From Siniperca chuatsi (Eukaryota; Chordata; Actinopteri; Centrarchiformes; Sinipercidae): a stretch of 64,000 nt of DNA. Location of the stretch: contig NC_058051.1 in the NCBI RefSeq assembly GCF_020085105.1, forward strand, positions 25,143,455-25,207,454. Direction: 5' to 3'. The position numbers were made by a program, and so were the translations under genes. How positions within the stretch are numbered: position 1 is the stretch's first letter; every line of letters begins with the position of its first letter. Positions 45,041 through 61,720 of the stretch are shown here, piece by piece. Below the pieces are notes generated by a model, which saw nothing but the letters and a program-made list of their open reading frames with translations, searched no databases and was not told the DNA's origin.

Positions 45041-47894
45041 GGATTTGATTTATTTTGGTTTTACTGGATTTTTTAATTACCATTTTAGCAGATTTTCCTC
45101 CTGACAACAATAGAATTCTGGGCTAATTTAAAAAATAGCAGGAATTATCTTGAAATATCATCTATTAACCTCTCCAGCACCGAAACACTGGAACTTTTAT
45201 GGTCCATCAAAGAGCTATATATATGTCAAACCCCTGTAAACATGTACAATCTTCATGGGAAAGTCTCCGTGTACAGGACCTGTGGGAGAGATGGCGGAAC
45301 TGTTGGGACGTTTCATTTCAGCAAACAGAGCAAATAGTCAGAGGATTTCCTCAATCAGAGGCTAAAGAGTGTGCAGTGAACAACCTCGCTGACAGAAACA
45401 TGGAGACCTACACCAGCAGCTGGGCGTGCTAACAACCTCTGGGATTTACTGTGGTGTGCAACACCCTTTAACTATAACACGGAGAGCCAGAATCAAACAC
45501 ATACATGCACACATCACACGTGCACTCACTCACATTTACACCAACAATTTAACCTTCAGAGAATCATAACTTTGTTGAGTCTTGAAGCTTAAAGCTTCAG
45601 CAGTTTTTGTCACTGAAGTTAATAACCACACTATTTCCTTATAACACATAGTTTGTATGACTGTAAAATCCCCTTGTGCTTGATTAAGATGTTTAACAAA
45701 ATGCAGCACTGGAATATCTGAACATCTGCAGTGACCAACAAGTGAGAGGTATTTAAAAAATGTGGACTATCATGCTTTTGTGTTTGCTGTTTATTTCTCA
45801 TGCTGAGATTAACCCGCTGTCATAAATCTAAAACTGCTCACAGCTGCAGTTACCGGTGTCCAATAGGAAGTGTATAAAAAAGATCCTCATTTACACTGAT
45901 GTTCTGTGGTAACATCAGTAAATTTCTACGTCCCTGTGCTCGCTGTGCCAGCTGCTGCTGAATGAGGCATTGTTTAATGCAGATGGTGGAATCCAAAGGT
46001 CTCACTCTTCCCTTTTCCATAAAGCCAGTCTGCTATTAATAACCTTATATCGACCTCCTTTGTCAACAAGAGCGACACATACAAATAATATGCTTGAAGG
46101 CAGACAATGGGGAGTTCCCTGCGATGAAAACAACAGGATGAGCTAGCCTCATAACAGTGTGTGTTTGTGTTTGCGTGTGTGTGATTGATGTGAGCCTCCA
46201 GTATGTAAGACAGTCAGTGTCTTAGAAAAACATCTCACTGACCAGACCAACTAAGTAAAATATTTCCAAACCTGTATACACCAAAAACCCCACTAGATAC
46301 CCAAATACAGCCTAAGACTATATTATTCTATACTTTAACTTATCTTTATTCTTACTTGTTGTGCTCTTTTTAGCATATTGGGTATTACATGCATAGTATT
46401 CACACATGTCCACTGTCGTCTGTTGCCTTATTGTTTTATTGTTTATTTGTTTATGGCCTTCTCTGGTTGTAAGTGTCAGTTTCACAGTGTGCTTTGTTGC
46501 ACCTGTAGCCACGCCCAACAGTGATGTCACAATGCAATGACACACCCTGGAGTACACTTCTTCATCACTGCAGCAAGGTGAGAAGTTAAGCTGCCGTTAT
46601 GCTTCATCAGAACTACTTGTCTGATGGTCAAATAGCTTCGGAAACTGCCTCCCCCCACAGACACCTTTCCAGCGCTGGATTAGGTGGGGAGCTGTGTCCG
46701 ACCATTTCAGTAACCTATGTTTCCAAAACCAACATGAACACCCACATCACATCGTGATTGGCCAGCTGTGCGGAGGTGAGAAAGTAGCCAGGGTTTGAAC
46801 CTCTCTCTCTCAAGTTCTCTTTTTTTATTTTTGACACAACTTTTTTCTGTCACTTTTCATGTTTAAAACTGAGACAGTATGAATGTCTTCCAGCAGAGAC
46901 TGTTGGAAAAACAAGCACCTGCTGTTGGTAAACGGTATGTACCGGCGGAACACAAGCGGCATACCGCTCTAGGGACCGGCATATGCAGCTGAACCACAAG
47001 TGGCAAACCATCAGCCACCTTTCGATCTCGGCACTCGTGCACCAGAGACAGATTTTAAAAAGAACAGTGAAAATTGAAGCAGCAGTGGCCAAGGTTTCCT
47101 GACTTATAGTCTCTATTATCCTGATCCTACAATTTCATGCAACTCATCTTGATGTCTTTCATTATAACCTCTTTTAAATCCCACACTTTGTAATGCAGCC
47201 TTTCTGTTATAAGGAACTCAGCTCCCTACAGGGCCTGTGTGTTGGTGGAGTGCCCCTTTAATTGGAGCTTTCTAGCAGAGTTTCAGGAGCAGGACCACAC
47301 CTCAACCATGCCACTTCCAGCACTTCCATAAATACCTACCTACCGCTCCTCCTCTCGCATTCTGCACCCCCCCGCCCCACGCCATTTATCTCTCCATTTT
47401 CCTCCTCTCCTTCCTCCTTTCCATAGGGTCCTGTGGTAGGTCTGTCATGCCCGGGTGCTACGGCGGATTCCCCACCAAAGCTTCCCCACACATAGTAGCG
47501 AACAGCGAGTCAAGCCTCCCACACAATCTTGTTTCATCAATAAATCATTTAAACATATCCCGTTGATGGTGTGGTCCTTGCTGGTGAAGTTACTCTTTAA
47601 GTTGCCTTACAAAAAATGGCCTCCTGCGGGGCAATAAAGATCTGAACTGAACTGCTGGTGTTGAGGGAGTTACCCAAAACTCAAATGTTTTGTTGTCCTA
47701 TAAAAAACTATATGACTATAAGTTACAGTAATAACACAGTAGCGCCACATGGTGGCATATTTTCTCAGACAATGAATGCCTCAAAATGACACCTTCAGCT
47801 CATATGTGCCCCTTTAACAGGAAACTGTGGCTCCATTTCAAGTGAAGTGAAAGAATCCATTTAGTTGACTCAAGTGACAGATGAAATGTAAAAA

Positions 47895-50800
47895 ATGTTT
47901 CAGAAGGTACTGTTCATTAAGGTGAGTTAAATCTGACTTTTATATAATCGTTAGAATTCAAACATTTTATTAATATTTTTTCATCCACTAGACGAACAAA
48001 AGTAGTTCAGTGAATTGATTCTGTGTGCACTAATTTGAAATACTTGTGCTCTCTGAAAACTACGGTTCTCAGCTGCTGTTGGTGCATTACGCAACCCAGA
48101 TTCAGGCAGAAATTCAAGCAAGCTGCAATGAAGATGTCCCACTTAAGTGTCCAGTTGTTGACATTGACAGCATGGATTTTCTCTCAGTAACATGGTACAA
48201 GGTCAGACACCAACATAAATTTTGCTAAATTTAAAAAACGATAGCTTGTTTAATTTTGTATGTCACTGACTTTAATTTCATTTTAAATTAATATAGAAAA
48301 ATGACTTTTTGGTTGTTACTTTGAACAGCACAACAACCAGAAAAAACTTGGCATTATCAGGAGAGGTAAAGATGAAAATCTCACACAGCACTACAACTTC
48401 ACTCGTTCGGCCAGGTTTGGAGAGAAACACAGTCTGTTCCTCGACAGTGTGACACCTGAAGATTCGGGCACCTATGAATGTTACATCAGTGCAAATGTAG
48501 GGGGTCAAAATCAAAATCCCACAGTCGTTCTAACGGTTAATGGTAAGCTTTGAATTTAATCTTCACCTTACTTTGCAGAATATATGATGTTTTGCTGACT
48601 GACGTAGAGCATCTAAACTGAGCTACACACATATCTGGATATTATATTGACGTGTTTTTTTATGTCTCTAAATGTTGGATTTCTAATGCAGTGGCAAGAT
48701 GTTTATGGCGTGTGAAACAGGTCATTTCCTTCATTTTTGACAGTTAAAGTTGCAGGTTACAGTATGCAAGTTGCAAAAGTGTTTGATCACAGTTTCCCGG
48801 TGAGATGCTTGAGGAACTGTAAATAATCAAATGAACACAAGATTGGAAATAAATTCTGTTTAAAGTTTAAACTGTTCAACAGAATTTATTTCCATTAATT
48901 CCATAAATAATGCATGGTCAGATTTGCCAACATATTCCAATATGTTAGGAAAAGATTGTTAAATACAGGTTGAGTTTTTATGTTACAGCTTTTAAATATT
49001 CACCAAAATTGAGAACTAATAAACTGTATTTATCTAAATAGTTTGACAGACAAAGCAACATTATGTTTTAAATTCATCTGACAAAAATCAGTTCATGGCC
49101 CAAACTTGTCTACTTTAACCTCATTTCTACTCTGTAAATAGTCCTACCCACATCAAAAAGCAGGAAATTCACTTTCCATCCATCCATCACCTCAAACACA
49201 CACAATATTTTCCTTTCCACTGCATGGAAACTGACATGCATTTTCCACCCATACATATTCTACCATTCATGAAAAAAATCAAATGTCTTCAAACGGACAA
49301 ATGCTCCCCCGGCTTGAGAATTTCAGCATAGACATTTTGTGAAATTGACTTTTTGAAGAAATAATGTTTAATCATCGATGAGATTACAAGTATCAAACAA
49401 CAGTTATTGGCTGGGATAGATGTCTACCAGTCTGGACTGAAATATCTCATTCATGCACTGATTTCTTCTATTTTTGTCTTAATACAGTGTGTACGACCCA
49501 GGCTGACCTGACAACAATGACAAGTGTGTTGAACACGACTCACTCCGACCTGCTGTGCCACAACCAAGTTGAGGACCTGCCAGTCATGTGGAGCATTGTA
49601 GGCTATGTGGCACTGGGCCTCGCCAAAATCATTTTATCTCTAATCAGCATTTGGGTAAATAAACTCTATTTATTTCACCAGCACTGTATGGATCTATTAG
49701 TGGTTATAAAGCAAACATGGAGTCAGGTCAATTTATATATCGAGCACGTGACCGAAATGCTTTACAGACAGATGATTAAAATGAAAATAAATGAGAATGT
49801 TTATTGGAGATAAGGAATTGATCAAAAGATTTAAGTGGTCTGGAGGTGAAATAAAGGAGGTGCTGGTGCCAATCTGTGCAGTGCTTTACAAACTTATATA
49901 TGAATCTTAAAATCAAGTCCATATTTCACTAGTAACCTTGCAGCATTTTGATGAGCTGCAGGCAAGACAAACATGACTGACTGAGAAAATAACACACTAG
50001 TTAAGGGAGGAGGAGAAAATAGCATGTTAAATAGTCCTCCAAATGAAACAATAAAATCTGCCGTTTGTCCATGCAATCTACAACGACACATAGAAGTGTG
50101 TTTTCATCTTACGCCCCTCCAGGCAGGACGACAGTTATAAATCACTGTTGAAAAATAAATTAGTTTTATGATGTGACAACATCATGATTAAGGGTTGGTC
50201 AGATCCAGGCACAAAAACGACTTGGTTACTGTAGGGAAAGGTGGTATTTAGGGTTAAAATAAGTGGTTAGGGAAACTTCATGGCTTGGGTTAAAATGATT
50301 AATACTTTCTTAAGGTTAGGGGAGCTTCGTCATCATGGTGACAACAATAAACAGGTGGTTTAGGGAGGGAATAATCGTGGCCTTATAAAAAAACCCAACA
50401 TTGACTGTTGATTGGAAACAGGAAATAAACAGCAGTCTTTGTTGCTCTATAATAATGTGATGTCACCTTAAGTTTTCATTTGTTCCCGTCATAATTACTA
50501 CATCTGCTGGAGGGCTTTGATACTTGAACATAAACATATGTGCTTTGAGGCATTTGCTAAATCGACTGATGCTGTCGTTCGTCTTTGGAGGACAGTCTCC
50601 AAAAGAGAGAAAATATTTGATTTTCACAATAAGCCTGAAGTGAAAAAAATCTGACATCAGAGTGATGTTTGTTTGTAAAAGGCAGAATCAAAAGTGACAC
50701 AAAGATTTATTGCATGTGCATGGACATTTGCAAACCCAAAAACGGTGGTTAAACCACTGATTTGAGGAGTTAAAAAAAGGAAGAACTCTGTGTCTCACTC

Positions 50801-51703
50801 TTGTTTGGCAAGAAAAAGTTTTTGTCATCCAGGATTTGACTCTGGAAACCCCGAACAGACTTATGTGGAAATGTATATAATTAAAATTAGATAGGGTCTA
50901 ACATGGAGCCTTGAGGAACACCAGGACAGGTGCAGCAGAGCAAACAAAAAGTTCATTCCCAACCGAGACTCATCTATCTTGCCAATGAGAAGCAAATCAC
51001 TCCAAACTCGTATTGCCTTTACCAACCACAAGTTTTGAAAGTCAATAGAAAGGTCAACCAGGTCAACCAGGCAGCAGAGATATGCATGTAAATCAATGTG
51101 AAAAGAATAGAGTGAGCGCAAAACAAATTTGAGCACTGTTCAAGGCAACATTTGAGAGTGTGCAGGATTTGTAAGAGCAGAATTTGAGGCCAAGAGAAGA
51201 AAAGAATTGTGATGTAAATGTTTTGACCCTGCAAGAGGAATAGTGTACCTACATTTGAGCGATCAACAGGGTTTCTCTTACTCATATATACTCATAATTT
51301 TGAGAAACTGCTCACTTTTAGCAGTTTGAATCCCCTGAGCATTAACTCGACAACATTAATGGCACTTTTATTTTGTTTTTGTGTTTTTGTATTTAGTGTG
51401 AAAACAGCATTACTCATCCTGTAGATGTGGGATTCTGACATTGTGCATGTGATGGCTGTTATTTAGTCATGCTTGTAAAGAGACCGTAGGCGAGCTAACT
51501 CCCGCTCTGAGTTACCATTTCCTCTAACAGCAGCCCGCCTCTCTCTCTTTTTGTTATTCTTAGGTATAGTGGGTGGGCTTCTTTCCAGTTGAATAAATCA
51601 CTAAATTGATTCATTCTCTGCTGTTTTGTCTCTTTCTGTGGTCATTCAGGTTATTCAAGCTATTCGTATCAGGTCTTCAAGACGACGGCAGCATAAGTGG
51701 TGA
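47895..51703 (+). CDS. CD83-like single-Ig-domain type I membrane protein with charged membrane span
   Basis: Five exons fit in frame: 47895-47921, 48073-48201, 48329-48542, 49488-49654 and 51650-51703 (TGA 51701), all with GT-AG borders, giving 196 aa. Residues 1-21 form a signal peptide split after MFQKVLFIK. The V-type Ig domain (about 22-123) has C27 and C35 in ASCNEDVPLKC, W50 in SVTWYK, and C103 in DSVTPEDSGTYEC. The CxEDVxLxC spacing and a V domain split by an intron match CD83. N69, N75 and N139 lie in N-glycosylation sequons. C125 and C147 are in the stalk. The membrane span (about 159-184) contains Lys170, and the tail is only about 12 residues, mostly basic, with no ITAM or ITIM. 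A basic residue in the span plus a minimal tail is typical of receptors that pair with an acidic adaptor (DAP12, FcR-gamma). The family call is firm as an Ig receptor and moderate as CD83-related. Exon 1 is the least certain. Confidence 0.75.
49845..51290 (-). mobile_element. Decayed L2-like LINE, antisense within the last intron of the CD83-like gene
   Basis: Read on the minus strand, fragments appear in LINE order. Near 51075 there is a LVDLSIDF-like piece (from the LLDLSAAFD motif of the reverse transcriptase). At 50900-50922 there is GVPQGSML, the conserved reverse-transcriptase motif. Near 49950-49990 there is HQNAARLL, then LDFKI, a stop, and CKALHRLAPAP, the same C-terminal block as in the LINE at 125-757. 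Stops and frameshifts are frequent, so it is an old dead copy. Its boundaries are approximate. Confidence 0.65.
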
Positions 51704-53896
51704 AGCTGACTGTCCGACCTGCTTGGAGACTTCAGTGAGATCAGAGCATATATATAGACAGACAAATCCTCTAAATCAGCCGTTAAAAGATTTTATTTTT
51801 GCATTTCTTGTACTTTGATTGTTTTCAGAGATATTCATGCATTTTTTCCAGTGAAGTGTCCTCAATTTGTAAAAATGTGTCACTGCGCTGACCAGTAAGA
51901 GGTCAACTCAACCAGAAAGTTAGGCACAACTTAACAGGAACAGACATGAGAGGATGTAAGGCTTATTTAGAGGAACAAAAACCACCATGCACACACTGCA
52001 CACACTGCTACAGGTGTAAACAGCATCTCTTAGTATATAATAGCCAAACTGTGATAACTGATATATTGTAACATCGAATTTGTGTTGACATTGTACAGGG
52101 ATTTAAACAAACTTCTGATATGTTAACGGCATATCCCAACAGAGTTTAAATGACAAATTTCTTCAAATTATTCATGTTTTTAACTGTGCTGTAAATAATT
52201 AATTAATTTAGACTTTATATGATGAAACTCAGCAACTGAAACACTCACTGGTTTTCACCCACCACATGTTCCTGTTTAGTTCCTGTCATAAATCAAGCAC
52301 TCAAAGAAATTATACCATTCTGAAAACATTGACACCACAGACAACAATAAACATACTTTCAACAAATCTTCATCAGATTTATATTATGGTTACGTTATCA
52401 TTATAACATCTCATGACACATTCAGACTTTTTGTTTTATGGCTGAAGCCCTCTTAAGGTGAGTGTGGTTCCTGTTTAAGAAGTGAAGTGAAGTGAAAGTG
52501 CAGCCCAGCATGTCAAGATGGTGTATTTACTCTCTCCAGTCTGTATTGACTTTCCCTGTTGGGGATGTAAAGAAATCCAGCAGCTTTTATCCTGCAGACA
52601 CCTGGAGTAAAACCCACCAATCTTCACAGAGGAGTGAACATGTACCGCTGAGTTCTACTCCTGGTTTACAAAGTCAGAATAATATAGGAAATGGATCACG
52701 TGGATCACTGCCTTTTTAAAAAAAAAAATATTGATTTGAGATCATACAAGAGGCAAGGGTTCTCACTGAGAGCAGCTCAGCAGGTGCAGAGTTTGGAGAA
52801 AAATGTACACAGATAACCACCTACTGGCACATCCTCAGACAACAGCACCACAGTCAGACAAAATCAAAACTCCACTGGATCATCAAGATGTATTCTAGAG
52901 AACTGAACTGTTTTAAAACAGGGTTTGAAAAATTCAAATGTGGGATTCAGTCTTGGACATTGATGGACAATGGAGTATGCCAGTAGAATAATTAAAAGCT
53001 TTTACAGTGTTTTAATAAATTGATTAATTAAATGCAATTTTAAATTATGCATCAAGCACAATAAAATAACTGATTGTTGATTTATTCTGTCTTTATATAA
53101 TAAAGTAATCATTGATTTTTAAAATGGTAAATTAAATTTGTAAATGCTTTAAATTGCTTTTTACTTATGTGTGCCAATCATTTTCCATTTCAGCATTGTT
53201 TCCAGCTTTATTTAGAGAAACATGAAACTTTTTTTAAACATCACATATCAATTGATTTAACAGACTTCTTATTGCTTTAAAATATTTAAAGCTCGGATTG
53301 GCCTGACTCCACACATGCTGGCCAATCAGGGTGCTTGTTGCTAGTTTGTGGGTTGGACTATTTATATTAGCTTTTTAAAATATATAAATGTATTAATTGA
53401 TTATTAAAAACTGTAAAAGTCTACAATTATTCTTTTGGCACAGTCCAGGCTTCAAGGAAAATGTATTTGGGGGAAAATAGTAATGATACTGGATAAAGCA
53501 TTTCACTTCCAATTCCCCCACTGAGACTGAATAGTGACCGACAGTACAGTGTATATACAGTGTTTGCTCATTCTTGTAATTCAGAGCACCTGATGAAGAC
53601 ACTTTAGGTTCAAGGAAAGCCAAGTCAGCATAGAGGATGCAATAAGTCAGGAAGCATCTATGGATGCTCTCTGTGATTGTGTCCATGACCTGTCATGGAC
53701 CTCTTTAGGCATCTGTATACATCTGTTGAACTTTAAACACTTTTTAAACACCTTCTCACCAGAAATCATCATTTTCCTTTTGCTTTTCCTCATGAAAGTT
53801 TATGAGTTTACCAAAGAACAAAAGGTGTTAACTGACCCAAATCTTATTGTTTCCTTTAGTGCATCGTGAGGAATTAGAACCATCATGTGTGCAGCT
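51704..53896. other. Gene-free interval after the CD83-like gene
   Basis: Part of the first few hundred bases is presumably the CD83-like 3' UTR; no poly(A) signal could be fixed. An 8-bp perfect inverted pair GATTGGCC/GGCCAATC lies at 53296-53303 and 53320-53327. Nothing else could be assigned. Confidence 0.45.
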
Positions 53897-54572
53897 AAAA
53901 TATTCATTACCAGTGTCTGCAGGAATATTTAAACGATGGTGTTATGACCTCAAAGATAAGAAGGAAAGGCTGGGCAGTTAATAATTAATAATGTCTCAAT
54001 CACTTGAGAGCCTTTAAGAATCCTTTAGCTTTTACAAGCACTGCTGTTTTCAACTCGTCCTGACCGTCATTAGGGTGTTAATGTACAAAGATCGTCAAAG
54101 GCTAGATTTTTAGCTCAAACTATGTCTTTCCAGCAGTGTAAAGCATCTGTGACTTTCATGATTCCTCATTTGTATCCTGTGGTGGGATTCTTGAAAGAGA
54201 CAATACTTTTGGTTTTGGATGTTTCACACCTCACCACCACAAGACTTCTTTTTCTGAGCTTCACCTTTTAACAAACTGTAGCACAGACTACTACTACTAC
54301 AGACTCTGTACTTCAGCAGCCTCTATTGCAATAGTTTTCTGAATCAGACACTGCGTACAAAATAAGTGAATGTTGGTCTTAACACAAGAACTCCGTCTAG
54401 CCTTTCTCTGGTATCAGATCTTCCTTTATACAGCTAATATTTCCCAGGAATAATAAACTCTAAAAGTTTCCAGGATGAGCTCTCTCTCTCTCTTTCTATG
54501 GTCTCTTTTATGGAAGCTATTTACATGTGAATTAATATGCAATATTATTTACGGATGTGTTTATACCTTTAA

Positions 54573-55003
54573 TGTCATGGTTCTGGGTTTTTGTCCTGTT
54601 ATTTCCTGTTTTGTTTGAAGTGTTCTCCTCTCCTCGTGTGTCTTGTGGTTTTACTTCCAGTCTTTGTTTGCTTTTCCCTCCAGTATTGATTGTTTGCCTC
54701 GCCCTAATTAGTTGCGCCTGTCTCGTTGTCTTCCCTACCTAAGTGTATTTAGTCAAATTTGTTTTACTTTGTTCAGTGTCAGTGTGTCATTGTACTCATG
54801 TCAAGTGTCCCGGCCTTAGTTTTCTGTGTTTTGGACTATTTCCCTGCTTACCTGTTTTTTTGTGTGACTCCTGTCTGCCTGTATCAGTGTAAGCCTTTTT
54901 TTCCTTTCATTAAATTACTCATATTGTACCCACCCTGTCTGGACATCTGCGTTTGGGGCCTACTCCCGCCTGCTTGATTCTCCGGCCTGACTAGCATACA
55001 ATA
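54573..55003 (+). repeat. 5' LTR of the Ty3/gypsy-type element
   Basis: 431 bp, the same length as the 3' LTR. Shared blocks include 'ggttctgggtttttgtcctg', 'ccctaattagttgcgcctgt', 'ggactatttcc' and 'tgactagcatacaa'. The final base pattern is ata here and aca in the 3' LTR. An attaaa near 54909-54914 could be the poly(A) signal. Confidence 0.85.
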
Positions 55004-55257: not shown

Positions 55258-55318
55258 ATCTGATGCTGGGCGTAGCTCAGAGTTGGACAGCCACCTGCCA
55301 GTTCCGGCTTCTGAGCCT

Positions 55319-56435
55319 AAAATATTCATTACCAGTGTCTGCAGGAATATTTAAACGATGGTGTTATAACCTCAAAGATAAGAAGGAAAGGCTGGGCAGT
55401 TAATAATTAATAATGTCTCAATCACTTGAGAGCCTTTAAGAATCCTTTAGCTTTTACAAGCACTGCTGTTTTCAACTCGTCCTGACCGTCATTAGGTTGT
55501 TAATGTACAAAGATTGTCAAAGGCTAGATCTTTAGCTCAAACAATGTCCTTCCAGCAGTGTAAAGCATCTGTGACTTTCATGATTCCTCATTTGTATCCT
55601 GTGGTGGGATTCTTGAAAGAGACAATACTTTTGGTTTTGGATGTTTCACACCTCACCACCACAAGACTTCTTTTTCTGAGCTTCACCTTTTAACAAACTG
55701 TAGCAGACTACTACTACTACAGAATCTGTACTTCAGCAGCCTCTATTGCAATAGTTTTCTGAATCAGACACTGCGTACAAAAAAAGTGAATGTTGGTCTT
55801 AACACAAATGTTACACAAGAACTCCGTCTAGCCTTTCTCTGGTATCAGATCTTCCTTTATACAGCTAATATTTCCCAGGAATAATAAACTCTAAAAGTTT
55901 CCAGGATGAGCTCTCTCTCTCTCTTTCTATGGTCTCTTTTATGGAAGCTATTTACATGTGAATTAATATGCAATATTATTTACGGATGTGTTTATACCTT
56001 TAATGTCATGGTTCTGGGTTTTTGTCCTGTTATTTCCTGTTTTGTTTGAAGTGTTCTCCTCTCCTCGTGTGTCTTGTGGTTTTACTTCCAGTCTTTGTTT
56101 GCTTTTCCCTCCAGTATTGATTGTTTGCCTCGCCCTAATTAGTTGCGCCTGTCTCGTTGTCTTCCCTACCTAAGTGTATTTAGTCAAATTTGTTTTACTT
56201 TGTTCAGTGTCAGTGTGTCATTGTACTCATGTCAAGTGTCCTGGCCTTAGTTTTCTGTGTTTTGGACTATTTCCCTGCTTACCTGTTTTTTTGTGTGACT
56301 CCTGTCTGCCCTGTTCTTGAGAGATTACACTTATTCATTGAAAACTCCATAGACATTAGGCACAGACTTTTTGTATACTCCTTAATGGAGAGCTCGGGGT
56401 TGGCCAACCACCTGCCAGTTCCGGCTTCTGAGCCT
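55319..56435. repeat. Tandem segmental duplication, copy B (with internal deletions)
   Basis: Repeats copy A from aaaatattcattaccag to ccggcttctgagcct. It has an 11-bp insertion near 55807 and a 2-bp loss near 55704. About 190 bp are missing where the LTR copy (56004 to about 56310) joins straight to 'tgttcttgagagattac', and a second gap is in the gag part. LTR copy 2 is almost identical to LTR 1 (I noted one difference in about 300 bp), while LTR 1 and the 3' LTR differ at many positions. Confidence 0.8.
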
Positions 56436-56942
56436 TTGGGCCTCCAGCTTGCTGGCATCCAGTCTGCTAGCAACCAGCCTGATTCCCAGCCTGCTAGCAG
56501 CCAGCCTGCTACTTATCAGCCTGCACCTCAGCTTGCTGGTTCCCAGCTGCCTACCTCCTTCGTGCTAGCCTCCAGTCTGCGTCTCAGCCTGCTAACCAGG
56601 TTGCACCTCAGCCTGTTCCTGTCTTGGAGGCACCTTCTGGAAAACCCCAAGAAGGAAGCGTGGCTCCTGCCGACGTCGTGACACACCGCTGCCCAACTGT
56701 TCGTCTTCACCGCTGCCCAGCGCTCCAGAGCTATCATTGGTCCTGCCTGATCCCCAGTCAACAGCCTGGCCAATACCAGTTCCTGGACCGCACCTGTCCT
56801 GCCCCTAGACTGGCCACCTGAGATCTTCCACTTGGCCTTGAATCCCTCTTTCGGACCCCCTCCACCCACCCAGCTCGATTTGTACATTTATTGGACTCTT
56901 TGTTGAAGGGACGTCTGGGAACTCTTGGGGGGGGGGGGGTAC
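56436..56942 (+). other. Remaining interior of the LTR element with polypurine tract
   Basis: Reads as repeated Gln-Pro-Ala and Ser-Gln-Pro motifs (for example QPASSQPATYQPAPQ near 56490-56530) in an open frame that began in LTR sequence, so it is not a gene of its own. It ends in a run of 13-14 G at about 56926-56939 that serves as the polypurine tract before the 3' LTR. Confidence 0.6.
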
Positions 56943-57373
56943 TGTTATGGTTCTGGGTTTTTGTCCTGTTATTTCCTGTTATATTTGAAGTGTTCTCCTC
57001 TCCTCGTGTGTCTTGCGTTTTTTCTTCCAGTCTTTGTTTGCTTTTTCCTCCAGTATTTATAGTTTGCCCCGCCCTAATTAGTTGCGCCTGTCTCGTTATC
57101 TCCCCTACCTAAGTTTATTTAGTCAAATTTTTTCTTTTGTTCGGTGTCAGTTTGTCATTGTACTCACGTCGAGTGTCCAGGCCTTAATTTTCTGTGTTTT
57201 GGACTATTTCCATGCTTACCTGTTTTTTTGAGTGACTCCTGTCTGCATCAGTGTAAGCCTTTTTTTCCTTTTATTAAATTACTCATGTTGTACCCACCCT
57301 GTCTGGACGTCTGTCCAGGCGTTTGGGTCCTGCTCCCTCCTGCTTGATTCCTCGGCTTGACTAGCATACAACA
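56943..57373 (+). repeat. 3' LTR of the Ty3/gypsy-type element
   Basis: 431 bp, TGTTATGG to CATACAACA, directly after the polypurine tract and followed by the target duplication tttaa. It is clearly diverged from the 5' LTR by substitutions and small indels. Confidence 0.85.
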
Positions 57374-58634: not shown

Positions 58635-61600
58635 CTAGTGCATAATTTCAATAAGTCTAGACACTGGTCTCAGTAACCGTCCAGCTCGGGATCTACGGTC
58701 AGGAACAGTGTCAACTTCAGTCACCATAGGGTCAGTAGGCAGGACAGAGTCAGGGGATGTAACAGTCTCTGGGTCTGGGCAAGGGGCAGAACTGCATTGC
58801 TCAACAGCTCCAGCTTCCAGCACATTATCTGGCACAGTATCTTCCAGCGGATCACCATCTCCTGCATCCGTAACACTGCCAGATGCTGATGGTAACTCAG
58901 ACACCCATGCCCTTGTCCGAAACTCAACTGACCCGAAGCAACATCAGTGACTGCTGACCTGTCTACACTGATGTCCACTGAACTTGATGCAAGGGACACA
59001 ACATCCTGTTCCTGAGCATTAGAATCTGAATCAGACAGAGGCAGGAAGTTCACTGGCATTATCAGATTACGATGAACAACTTTTATCTGACCACTGGTGG
59101 GGTTCTGAATCTTAAAGGTGTGGCTCTCATCGTTTTTCTCGATCACGACATAGATTGTGTTTTCCCAATGATCAGCGAGCTTCCGTTTTCCACGCTCCCC
59201 CTTGTTGGCTAATAACACTCGATCATCCACATCCACCGGAGCCCCATGCACTTTCTTGTTGTACAGATCACTGTGGCGCTGAAGTTGTTTAGTTGCCATT
59301 GATTGTGCTATGGCCACTGCTTCACACAAGTTTTTTCGCAAGGACTCAACATAACGATCATAGTCCACAACTTCTGGATCATTGAGAACCGAACCAAATA
59401 TCACATCCACCGGGAGTCGCGGCACTCTACCGAACATGAGCAGGAACGGAGCATAGCCAGTTGTCTCGTGTACAGTGCAGTTATAAGCAAATGTCAATGA
59501 TTTCAGGGCATCGGGCCAACGGTGTTTTGCTCTAGGGGCAGTGCTCGAATCATGTTACCTAGCGTCACGGTTCATCCTTTCACATGAGCCATTACCCATG
59601 GGGTGATAGGGTGTAGTGTGCGATTTTTGCACCCCAGCCACGCTCAGCAACTCCGCAATTAGAGCGCTCTCAAAGTTGGCTCCCTGATCGGAATGAAGCC
59701 GCTTTGGAAATCCATAAATGCAAAAGTAGTTATTCCATAGCTGATGAGCGACTGCTTTGGCTGACTGGTTGGGACACAGGAAGGCGTGTGCCATTTTAGT
59801 GAAATGGTCCGTGGCGACAAGCACATCCAAGGACCTATTAGCGGAATCTTCAGCCGACCAAAAATCGATGCTGACCAGTTCAAGAGGCTCAGAGGCACGA
59901 ATGTTTCCTAGTGGTGCTCTAGCCTCCGGCTCAGGGGACTTCCCAACCACACACCGCCTGCAGCGCTTGACATACTCTGCCACGTCTTTAGAGAGCCCCA
60001 ACCAATGAAACCTCTGCCTCGCCAAATACAGAGTCCTTTGCTGTCCCTGATGGCCAGCCTCATCGTGAACCCCATGCAAAACTTTACGTTGCAACGAGAG
60101 AGGAACAACAAACAGGTAGGTCTTCTTTTTAGTTACTGGATTCTTTGCAACACGGTACAGAACTCCATCTTTCATAGTTAGTTTCTTCCAGTTCCTCAAC
60201 AACTTGATCACTTCAGCAGATTCCTTAGCACGCTCCCTCCTAGATGGTCTCCGTCCTCTTTCCACATACACGATCACTCTGTTCAAATCCAAATCATTCC
60301 TTTGTTTCTCTTTTAACTCATCGTGGGACAGCACGTCAGAGCCAATATTTGGGGGGTACCAGGATTGTCTGGGAGAACTGTGGCAAGAGCAATGCGTGTG
60401 CAACCAACTCAGCGTCACTATCTTTACATTGACTGAGCACAGCAGCAACTTCCTGAGATGAAACGGAGCCAGACGCAACATCTGCTGCACATTGTGTAAA
60501 GACAGGCTGGCCACACTCGGATGTCAAATCAGGTGGATTGGCAGACCACCGAAAAGCATCCTGAACACCAGTGGTGCCCACAGCCGCAGCCTCAGCAAGT
60601 AACTTGGCATACGGCACTCTGGTCAAACGATGGGACGTACTGGACTGCACAAAAGGCTCTCTGCTTAAAGCGTCAGCAACCACATTTCTGGGTCCTGGAA
60701 TGTACTTGATATCGAACTGGAAAGGTGCAAGCTTAGCAATCCACCTCTGCTCACACGCATCCAGACAAGCTTTGGACAATATATAAGTTAACGGGTTATT
60801 GTCTGTCCACACGGTGAACTGATGACCTCTCAACCAGTGGTGGAACTTATCGCACACCGCCCACTTAAGTGCGAAAAACTCTAGTCTGTGCGCAGGATAT
60901 TTTGACTGAGCATAACTGAGGGACTTACTAGCGAATGCAATTGGCCTGGCTGTTGTACCACCAGCAGGAACTTGCGACAAGACAGCGCCTAACCCGTCTG
61001 TAGAGGCGTCGACAGAAAGCAAAAACGGGTCAGTAAAGTTCGGTGCGCGAGAATGACTTGGTCTAACAGGGCTTGTTTTAATTTGTTGAACGCTGACCTA
61101 CATTCTTCAGTCCAGTCAACAGCACTAAGTTTCTTACGAACCTGACACTTTCTACGAGTTCCGCGAGGACCTTTCGACCCTGATGTGAGTCGAAACAGTG
61201 GTTTGGCTATAGTAGAACAGCCCTCAATAAACTGCTGGTAATACACCACCATACCAAGGAACGAACGAACTTTGCGCTGAGATGGGACATCAGTGCCATC
61301 CTCCATAAGGTCAGATTCTGTCAAAGAGGTTATGGCTGCAACTTTATCTGGGTCAGACTGAATACCATCAGCGCTGATGATATGACCGAGAAACTTCACT
61401 GACCGTCTTAGAAAGTTGCATTTCTTGGGCGCGAGCTTGAGGTTATGTAACTGTAGTCTCTGAAAGACCATCTGTAAACGTTCAAGAGCCATATTTTCAG
61501 TGGGCGCGAACACGAGGACATCGTCCAGATAGCACAACAAACTGAGGAAGTTTTGATCGCCAAAGATCCCTAACATCATCCTCATGAACGTCGCCGGACT

Positions 61601-61639
61601 GTTACAAAGGCCCTGAGGCATCCTATTATATTCATACAG
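58635..61639 (-). pseudogene. Ty3/gypsy pol relic: reverse transcriptase (partial), RNase H, integrase
   Basis: From high to low coordinates: MPQGLCNSPATF and the catalytic YLDDVLVF (about 61508-61531) of reverse transcriptase; RNase H with LSVDASTDG (about 61000) and TDNNPLTY (about 60800), ending in VADALSRE (about 60660). Integrase follows with an HHCC-like zinc region (HDEAGHQGQQRT ... CRRC, about 59955-60070). Its core has VSIDFW, SDQGANFES and a downstream Glu in SCERMNR (the DDE triad). Then come GYAPFLLMFGRVPR and a basic C-terminus RSRAGRLLRPVSRLIE. The frame is broken near 61040, 60345 and 58900 (frameshifts), and there is an in-frame stop near 59555. No functional enzyme is expected. 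Long open stretches suggest a moderately young relic. Confidence 0.9.
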
Positions 61640-61720
61640 AATTGTTTGCTAATTAGCAAATGTTAGCATGCTAACAAGCTGATGTGTGCATTTGGCTCAA
61701 AGCACCAGCACTGTACCTGG
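61640..61720. repeat. Dispersed-repeat fragment abutting the gypsy relic
   Basis: 'tttgctaattagcaaatgtt' and 'agcatgctaacaagctgatg' are an inverted match to the lead segment of the repeat at 35980-36665. It begins where pol homology ends, so it may mark the truncation breakpoint. Confidence 0.5.

Follow-up and report, generated by a model that had tools for sequence, protein, structure and literature searches.

A 64-kb stretch of the 718.8-Mb genome of Siniperca chuatsi (G000:C10:25143455-25207454, the window in what follows) contains a five-exon gene for a predicted receptor with one immunoglobulin (Ig) V-type domain, a lysine within its membrane span, and hardly any cytoplasmic tail. The locus raises the question of what this receptor is: the fish counterpart of CD83, a relative of CD83 that may signal in a different way, or an Ig receptor of some other descent. 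From the sequence of this one genome, we favor, with modest confidence, a CD83 paralogue that split from a separate cd83 gene on C9 and that could function as an activating receptor coupled to an adaptor through Lys170.

An initial annotation of the window had joined exons 47895-47921, 48073-48201, 48329-48542, 49488-49654, and 51650-51703 into one frame, and this model holds: the exons make up 591 nt encoding 196 amino acids, all four introns have GT-AG borders, and the intron phases are 0, 0, 1, and 0. All exons lie on the plus strand. Exon 1 as proposed (47895..47921, 27 nt) encodes residues 1 to 9 of the signal peptide and ends in phase 0; it is followed by an intron of 151 bp and by exon 2 (48073..48201), which supplies the remaining signal peptide and the start of the V domain and closes with VTWYK in phase 0. 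Exon 3 (48329..48542) completes the V domain, including the DSGTYEC motif and the sequons N69 and N75, and ends in phase 1, whereas exon 4 (49488..49654), ending in phase 0, encodes Cys125, a stalk with the N139 sequon and Cys147, and the membrane span. Exon 5 (51650..51703) consists of 17 codons for the basic, tyrosine-free tail VIQAIRIRSSRRRQHKW and a stop codon. The first AATAAA 3' of the stop (52346..52351, plus strand) is a possible polyadenylation signal.

The anatomy proposed for the protein, with its split V domain, three sequons, Lys170-containing span, and short basic tail, was recovered as well. From the N terminus, the layout is a signal peptide, the split V-set domain, a stalk, a membrane span, and the tail. 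The Pfam V-set model matches residues 21-122 with an E value of 1.1e-9, above its cut-off; the cysteines are at positions 27, 35, 103, 125, and 147. The span IVGYVALGLAKIILSLISIW (49595..49654, plus strand) carries the Lys170 codon at 49625-49627, and Lys170 is residue 11 of the 19 in the best hydrophobic window, near mid-span. The protein thus combines a mid-span basic residue with a short tail that lacks tyrosine motifs.

The exon structure is predicted from genomic DNA, and it has soft points. On a simple splice-site matrix, the donors of exons 1 to 4 scored 12.3, 6.8, 9.0, and 5.1, the weakest being that of exon 4, and the acceptor of exon 2 has pyrimidines at only 9 of 17 positions. Of all parts of the model, exon 1 is the most doubtful. 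A mechanically derived alternative first exon, MSTVVCCLIVLLFICLWPSLV (46406..46468, plus strand), lies approximately 1.4 kb upstream and encodes a more hydrophobic signal peptide but has a poorer donor (5.8, compared with 12.3). Translation of exon 4 could continue beyond its donor, as the reading frame meets no stop up to 49810, and the read-through (49655..49813 with the stop, plus strand) may represent a retained-intron form. Whichever first exon is used, and with or without read-through, the V domain and the lysine are unchanged. The weakness of exon 1 and of the exon 4 donor, the alternative exon, the read-through, and the derivation of the model from genomic DNA are what could be said for a nonfunctional relic or a misjoined gene. 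We consider this very improbable, given 196 codons that have remained open across five exons with canonical borders despite long divergence, and given the retained core residues of the V domain.

Is this gene CD83 itself? A fish CD83 sequence, used as a query against the genome, matched four cd83 exons on C9 with E values of 3.2e-25, 1.7e-11, 2.5e-5, and 0.0016. The corresponding gene, with a predicted exon 1, occupies G000:C9:2414507-2418288 (L047, L048, and L050) on the minus strand. Its assembled product is 26% identical to human CD83 over 173 amino acids that include the span and the beginning of the tail (pair E value, 1e-13), and its last exon encodes 51 residues, starting with Val like exon 5 of the window gene. 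The features expected of a CD83 orthologue, a long cytoplasmic tail and a CD83 membrane span, are present in the C9 gene and absent from the window gene. Because C9 carries a cd83 with a long tail, and the window gene lacks that tail, the latter is a second gene, neither the sole CD83-like gene of this genome nor the canonical one. It is most likely a CD83 paralogue rather than CD83. In the C9 product, the residue aligned with Lys170, counting from the exon 4 border, is Phe. With respect to its cysteines, the C9 product has none at the place of human C27, with one instead four residues ahead of the B-strand Cys, and another precedes the F-strand Cys by eight residues, a position displaced by one column from that of human C100.

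The case for kinship with CD83 rests on gene structure and V-domain scores. The window gene and C9 cd83 have three introns in common in both position and phase, namely, within the V domain after W-x-K (phase 0; VTWYK in the former corresponds to LRWYK in the latter), after the V domain (phase 1), and after the span (phase 0). The proteins are 27% identical over 109 amino acids, and with introns removed, their V domains are each other's best match among the 11 compared, if by a modest margin: the scores of 90-100 are followed by those of B7-H4 (85), a C22 V exon (84), and a C12 V exon (81). The initial annotation had pointed to C27, E29-D30-V31, L33, and C35 at the residue numbers of human CD83. 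Alignment with the human sequence, which was checked against PDB, confirms the match, which nevertheless is weak evidence, because C9 cd83 does not keep this C27-x-E-D-V-x-L-x-C35 motif. A close copy of the window gene was not found when the genome was searched with its protein.

A number of observations weigh against the kinship. When the window protein was the genome query, C9 cd83 came fifth of 14 other places (E value, 0.16), and in the converse search the window gene came fifth of 11 (E value, 0.22); human CD83 retrieved 23 weak places that included neither gene, probably because of their split V domain. The human CD83 V domain scored higher with a V exon, L030 (Z, 16.4), than with C9 cd83 (14.5) or the window gene (12.9). 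A V-domain tree, which included both reading frames of L030, joined the window gene to a long C12 V exon, L009 (95/93), and to no CD83, and placed human and mouse CD83 with L026 (89/89); this tree is saturated, with 12 of its 16 inner branches open, and is not used as support. The structural agreement is itself incomplete, in that intron 1 has phase 0 in the window gene and phase 1 in the C9 prediction (lengths, 151 and 154 bp), and the human Cys100 counterpart is missing from the window protein, in which C27 and the C129 counterpart (C125) are present. The extra cysteines of human CD83 (C27, C100, and C129) are described as moderately conserved among orthologues (PMC7181454). As for the C9 gene, it falls below the Pfam V-set cut-off (23.8 versus 26 bits), as may be expected of a divergent V domain, and its span carries an Arg toward the inner face (FALVIFRISY), four residues ahead of the exon 4 border.

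These results could also be explained by an Ig superfamily receptor with no special relation to CD83, for example, a B7-, butyrophilin-, or NITR-like one, whose V domain is similar to that of CD83 only in the way that V domains are generally alike. The near-matching scores of B7-H4 and the C22 and C12 V exons, the equal or higher rank of unsplit V exons in the genome searches, and the pairing in the tree would all fit this explanation. Exon-wise searches, though, put a split V domain at a disadvantage relative to one-piece V exons, and a score alone cannot separate that disadvantage from absence of kinship, whereas the intron positions and phases and the reciprocal best V-domain scores speak for kinship with CD83. 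We regard an unrelated receptor as rather improbable, although the exon-wise searches and the tree do not confirm the proposed kinship. Two further places came up in these searches. A one-piece V exon at G000:C22:23693935-23694300 (L006) was a recurrent weak match of the window gene, human CD83, and C9 cd83. C11:9023376, considered as a further CD83 candidate, was rejected, as by eye it is an FGFR Ig exon.

The next question is what the lysine does. According to PMC4810170 and PMC2442602, stimulatory receptors typically have a short tail and a positively charged span. The anatomy that had led the initial annotation to propose an adaptor-coupled receptor is present, and the genome has adaptor-type membrane exons. 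FcR-gamma/zeta-type loci number four above the family cut-off, and the three of them that were inspected all encode an Asp in the span. A DAP10/12-like membrane exon, also with Asp in the span, is found at L057 (G000:C9:16111084-16111185), at a Pfam DAP10 E value of 0.0016, below the cut-off. As estimated with an insertion scale and our own weighting, the span has a membrane insertion score of 0.72, which becomes -2.35 when Lys170 is treated as leucine; the values for NKp44 and NKp30 are 1.48 and 2.43, and that for human CD83 is -3.45. Such marginal insertion suggests, weakly, that the span needs a partner. It is no sure sign of one, because TREM2 scored -1.66 despite its membrane lysine.

That TREM2 value weighs against adaptor coupling, as do two other results: in the three adaptor loci inspected, the exon for the immunoreceptor tyrosine-based activation motif was not located, with chance-like patterns only, and the lysine of catfish LITR 2.6b could be replaced with adaptor binding kept, as stated in PMC4810170. 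The same paper reports that LITR 2.6b, which has a membrane Lys, binds FcR-gamma types and a zeta-like adaptor but not DAP12 and that binding required the adaptor's negative charge; fish Nitr9, with its charged span, pairs with Dap12 according to PMC2442602. In view of these divergent results, the adaptor partner of the window receptor cannot be named, and the lysine by itself is no proof of coupling, being on the catfish evidence a poor proof in fish (PMC4810170). Coupling is nevertheless likely as judged from the predicted protein, and an adaptor-coupled activating receptor is, by inference, the best reading of the tail loss, the mid-membrane lysine, and the Asp-bearing adaptor exons taken together.

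A CD83 paralogue without adaptor signaling would account for the lysine differently, as a residue that the helix tolerates or one that serves retention in the endoplasmic reticulum or pairing with another membrane protein, the short-tailed protein acting as a ligand or decoy. Adaptor pairing of the window receptor is a prediction, the lysine of LITR 2.6b is dispensable (PMC4810170), and, as PMC7181454 reports, the span of CD83 acts on the ligase MARCH8, so that CD83 spans can have nonsignaling roles. We nonetheless hold this version to be the less likely one, considering the typical stimulatory layout described in PMC4810170 and PMC2442602 and the weak hint of a partner requirement from the insertion estimates.

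If the receptor is an adaptor-coupled paralogue, its history and action might be as follows. It would have retained the CD83 gene plan, with one V domain split after W-x-K, a membrane exon, and a tail exon; the membrane exon would have diverged and gained the mid-span lysine, and the tail exon would have shortened to 17 codons, leaving neither the CD83 tail nor any tyrosine. In the presumably expressed protein, the V domain would bind a putative cell surface ligand, and Lys170 would pair in the membrane with the Asp of an adaptor dimer of the FcR-gamma/zeta or DAP10/12 type, which would bring the receptor to the surface and carry the activating signal.

Where might the gene have come from? Among the neighbor names given initially, scrt2 and tcf15 are upheld by Pfam matches to zinc fingers and HLH, respectively, whereas the srxn1 piece, when tried, had no Pfam match. 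A slc13a-like gene (identified by eye) lies downstream of the window. A DC-STAMP-family gene (L018:4253-5584; Pfam DC_STAMP E value, 7.3e-14) and a trhr-like receptor (L019:279-1178; Pfam 7tm_1, subtype by eye) each begin at most 21 kb past the window. Neighbor paralogues were sought for the scrt, stamp, and trhr families (srxn1, tcf15, and slc13a were left out): scrt copies are on C9, C17, and C2, trhr copies on C17 and C9, and the stamp copy on C9 only, so that all three families have a C9 copy. The pattern is in keeping with an old genome duplication that left sister chromosomes and by which the window gene and C9 cd83 probably split. Human SCRT2 and TCF15 are on 20p, OCSTAMP is on 20q, and DCSTAMP and TRHR are on 8q, places that fit duplication sisters. 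On C9, however, the three neighbor paralogues are 12-22 Mb away from cd83, which weighs against such an origin. The synteny marker CK2-alpha was absent from the window and the six flanking 10-kb loci.

A search for rnf182, which together with ranbp9 lies beside human CD83, gave 14 matches; C9 has none of them, and the top-scoring ones are on C13, C1, and C2. At G000:C13, 3.60-3.63 Mb (L038 and L044-L046), there is a strong rnf182-like gene (59% identity), with a ranbp9-like exon, identified by eye, approximately 25 kb on; the human CD83 neighborhood thus seems to be on C13 and cd83 itself on C9. A 30-kb stretch next to the C13 rnf182 yielded only weak matches by tblastn and a motif scan. Two of them, 0.9 kb apart on one strand, resembled a split V domain but are taken as chance, since on reading the donor was absent at the expected place. 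Because human CD83 is at 6p23 (PMC7181454) and rnf182 is off C9, any date for the split is tentative. The full scenario, in which fish retained an ancient CD83 sister next to scrt2 and tcf15 and rebuilt it as an activating receptor using Asp-bearing adaptors, has in our view a little less than an even chance of being right.

Elsewhere in the window, integrase and reverse transcriptase domains (Pfam) mark the pieces of a retroelement at 59558-61648 on the minus strand, which we take to be Ty3/gypsy-like. A direct duplication of approximately 1 kb links 53895-54882 and 55317-56314 (97.7% identity), and 56940-57371 is 89.7% identical to 54570-55001. A scan of the window with Rfam gave no match at gathering score, and comparison of exon 3 with viral contigs gave 16 pattern matches and no relative.

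We would class the window gene as a CD83 paralogue with activating-receptor anatomy. To our knowledge, CD83 has been regarded as a single gene with a regulatory role on antigen-presenting cells; if our reading is true, the CD83 family at one time included, and in fish may include to this day, both regulatory and activating members, and the gene would offer a further handle on CD83 ligands and a clear test of the anchor features needed for adaptor pairing in fish receptors. The open-licence literature searched, as far as its texts were accessible, describes no CD83 paralogue at this locus.

Among known systems, CD83 itself (human, and C9 cd83) is the closest, with the same five-exon plan, the same split V-set domain, the same phases after the V domain (1) and the span (0), a Cys right after the V domain (C125 in the window protein, C129 in human), and V-region identity of 27-28%. 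The window gene differs in its separate locus on C10, its mid-span lysine, and a 17-residue last exon in place of a long tail, and its protein has a longer stalk with Cys147 and no counterpart of Cys100; exon 4, which encodes the stalk, measures 167 nt, compared with 104 nt in C9 cd83. Mammalian NKp30, NKp44, and TREM2 likewise have a single V domain and a basic residue in the span, although V-domain similarity to them was not clearly above that of shuffled sequence. Catfish LITR 2.6b and zebrafish and medaka NITR9, set beside the window protein by their description in PMC4810170 and PMC2442602, are also Ig receptors that have a basic span residue and lack the usual tyrosine motifs in the tail; they are, however, members of other, multigene Ig families, and medaka NITR9 uses Arg.
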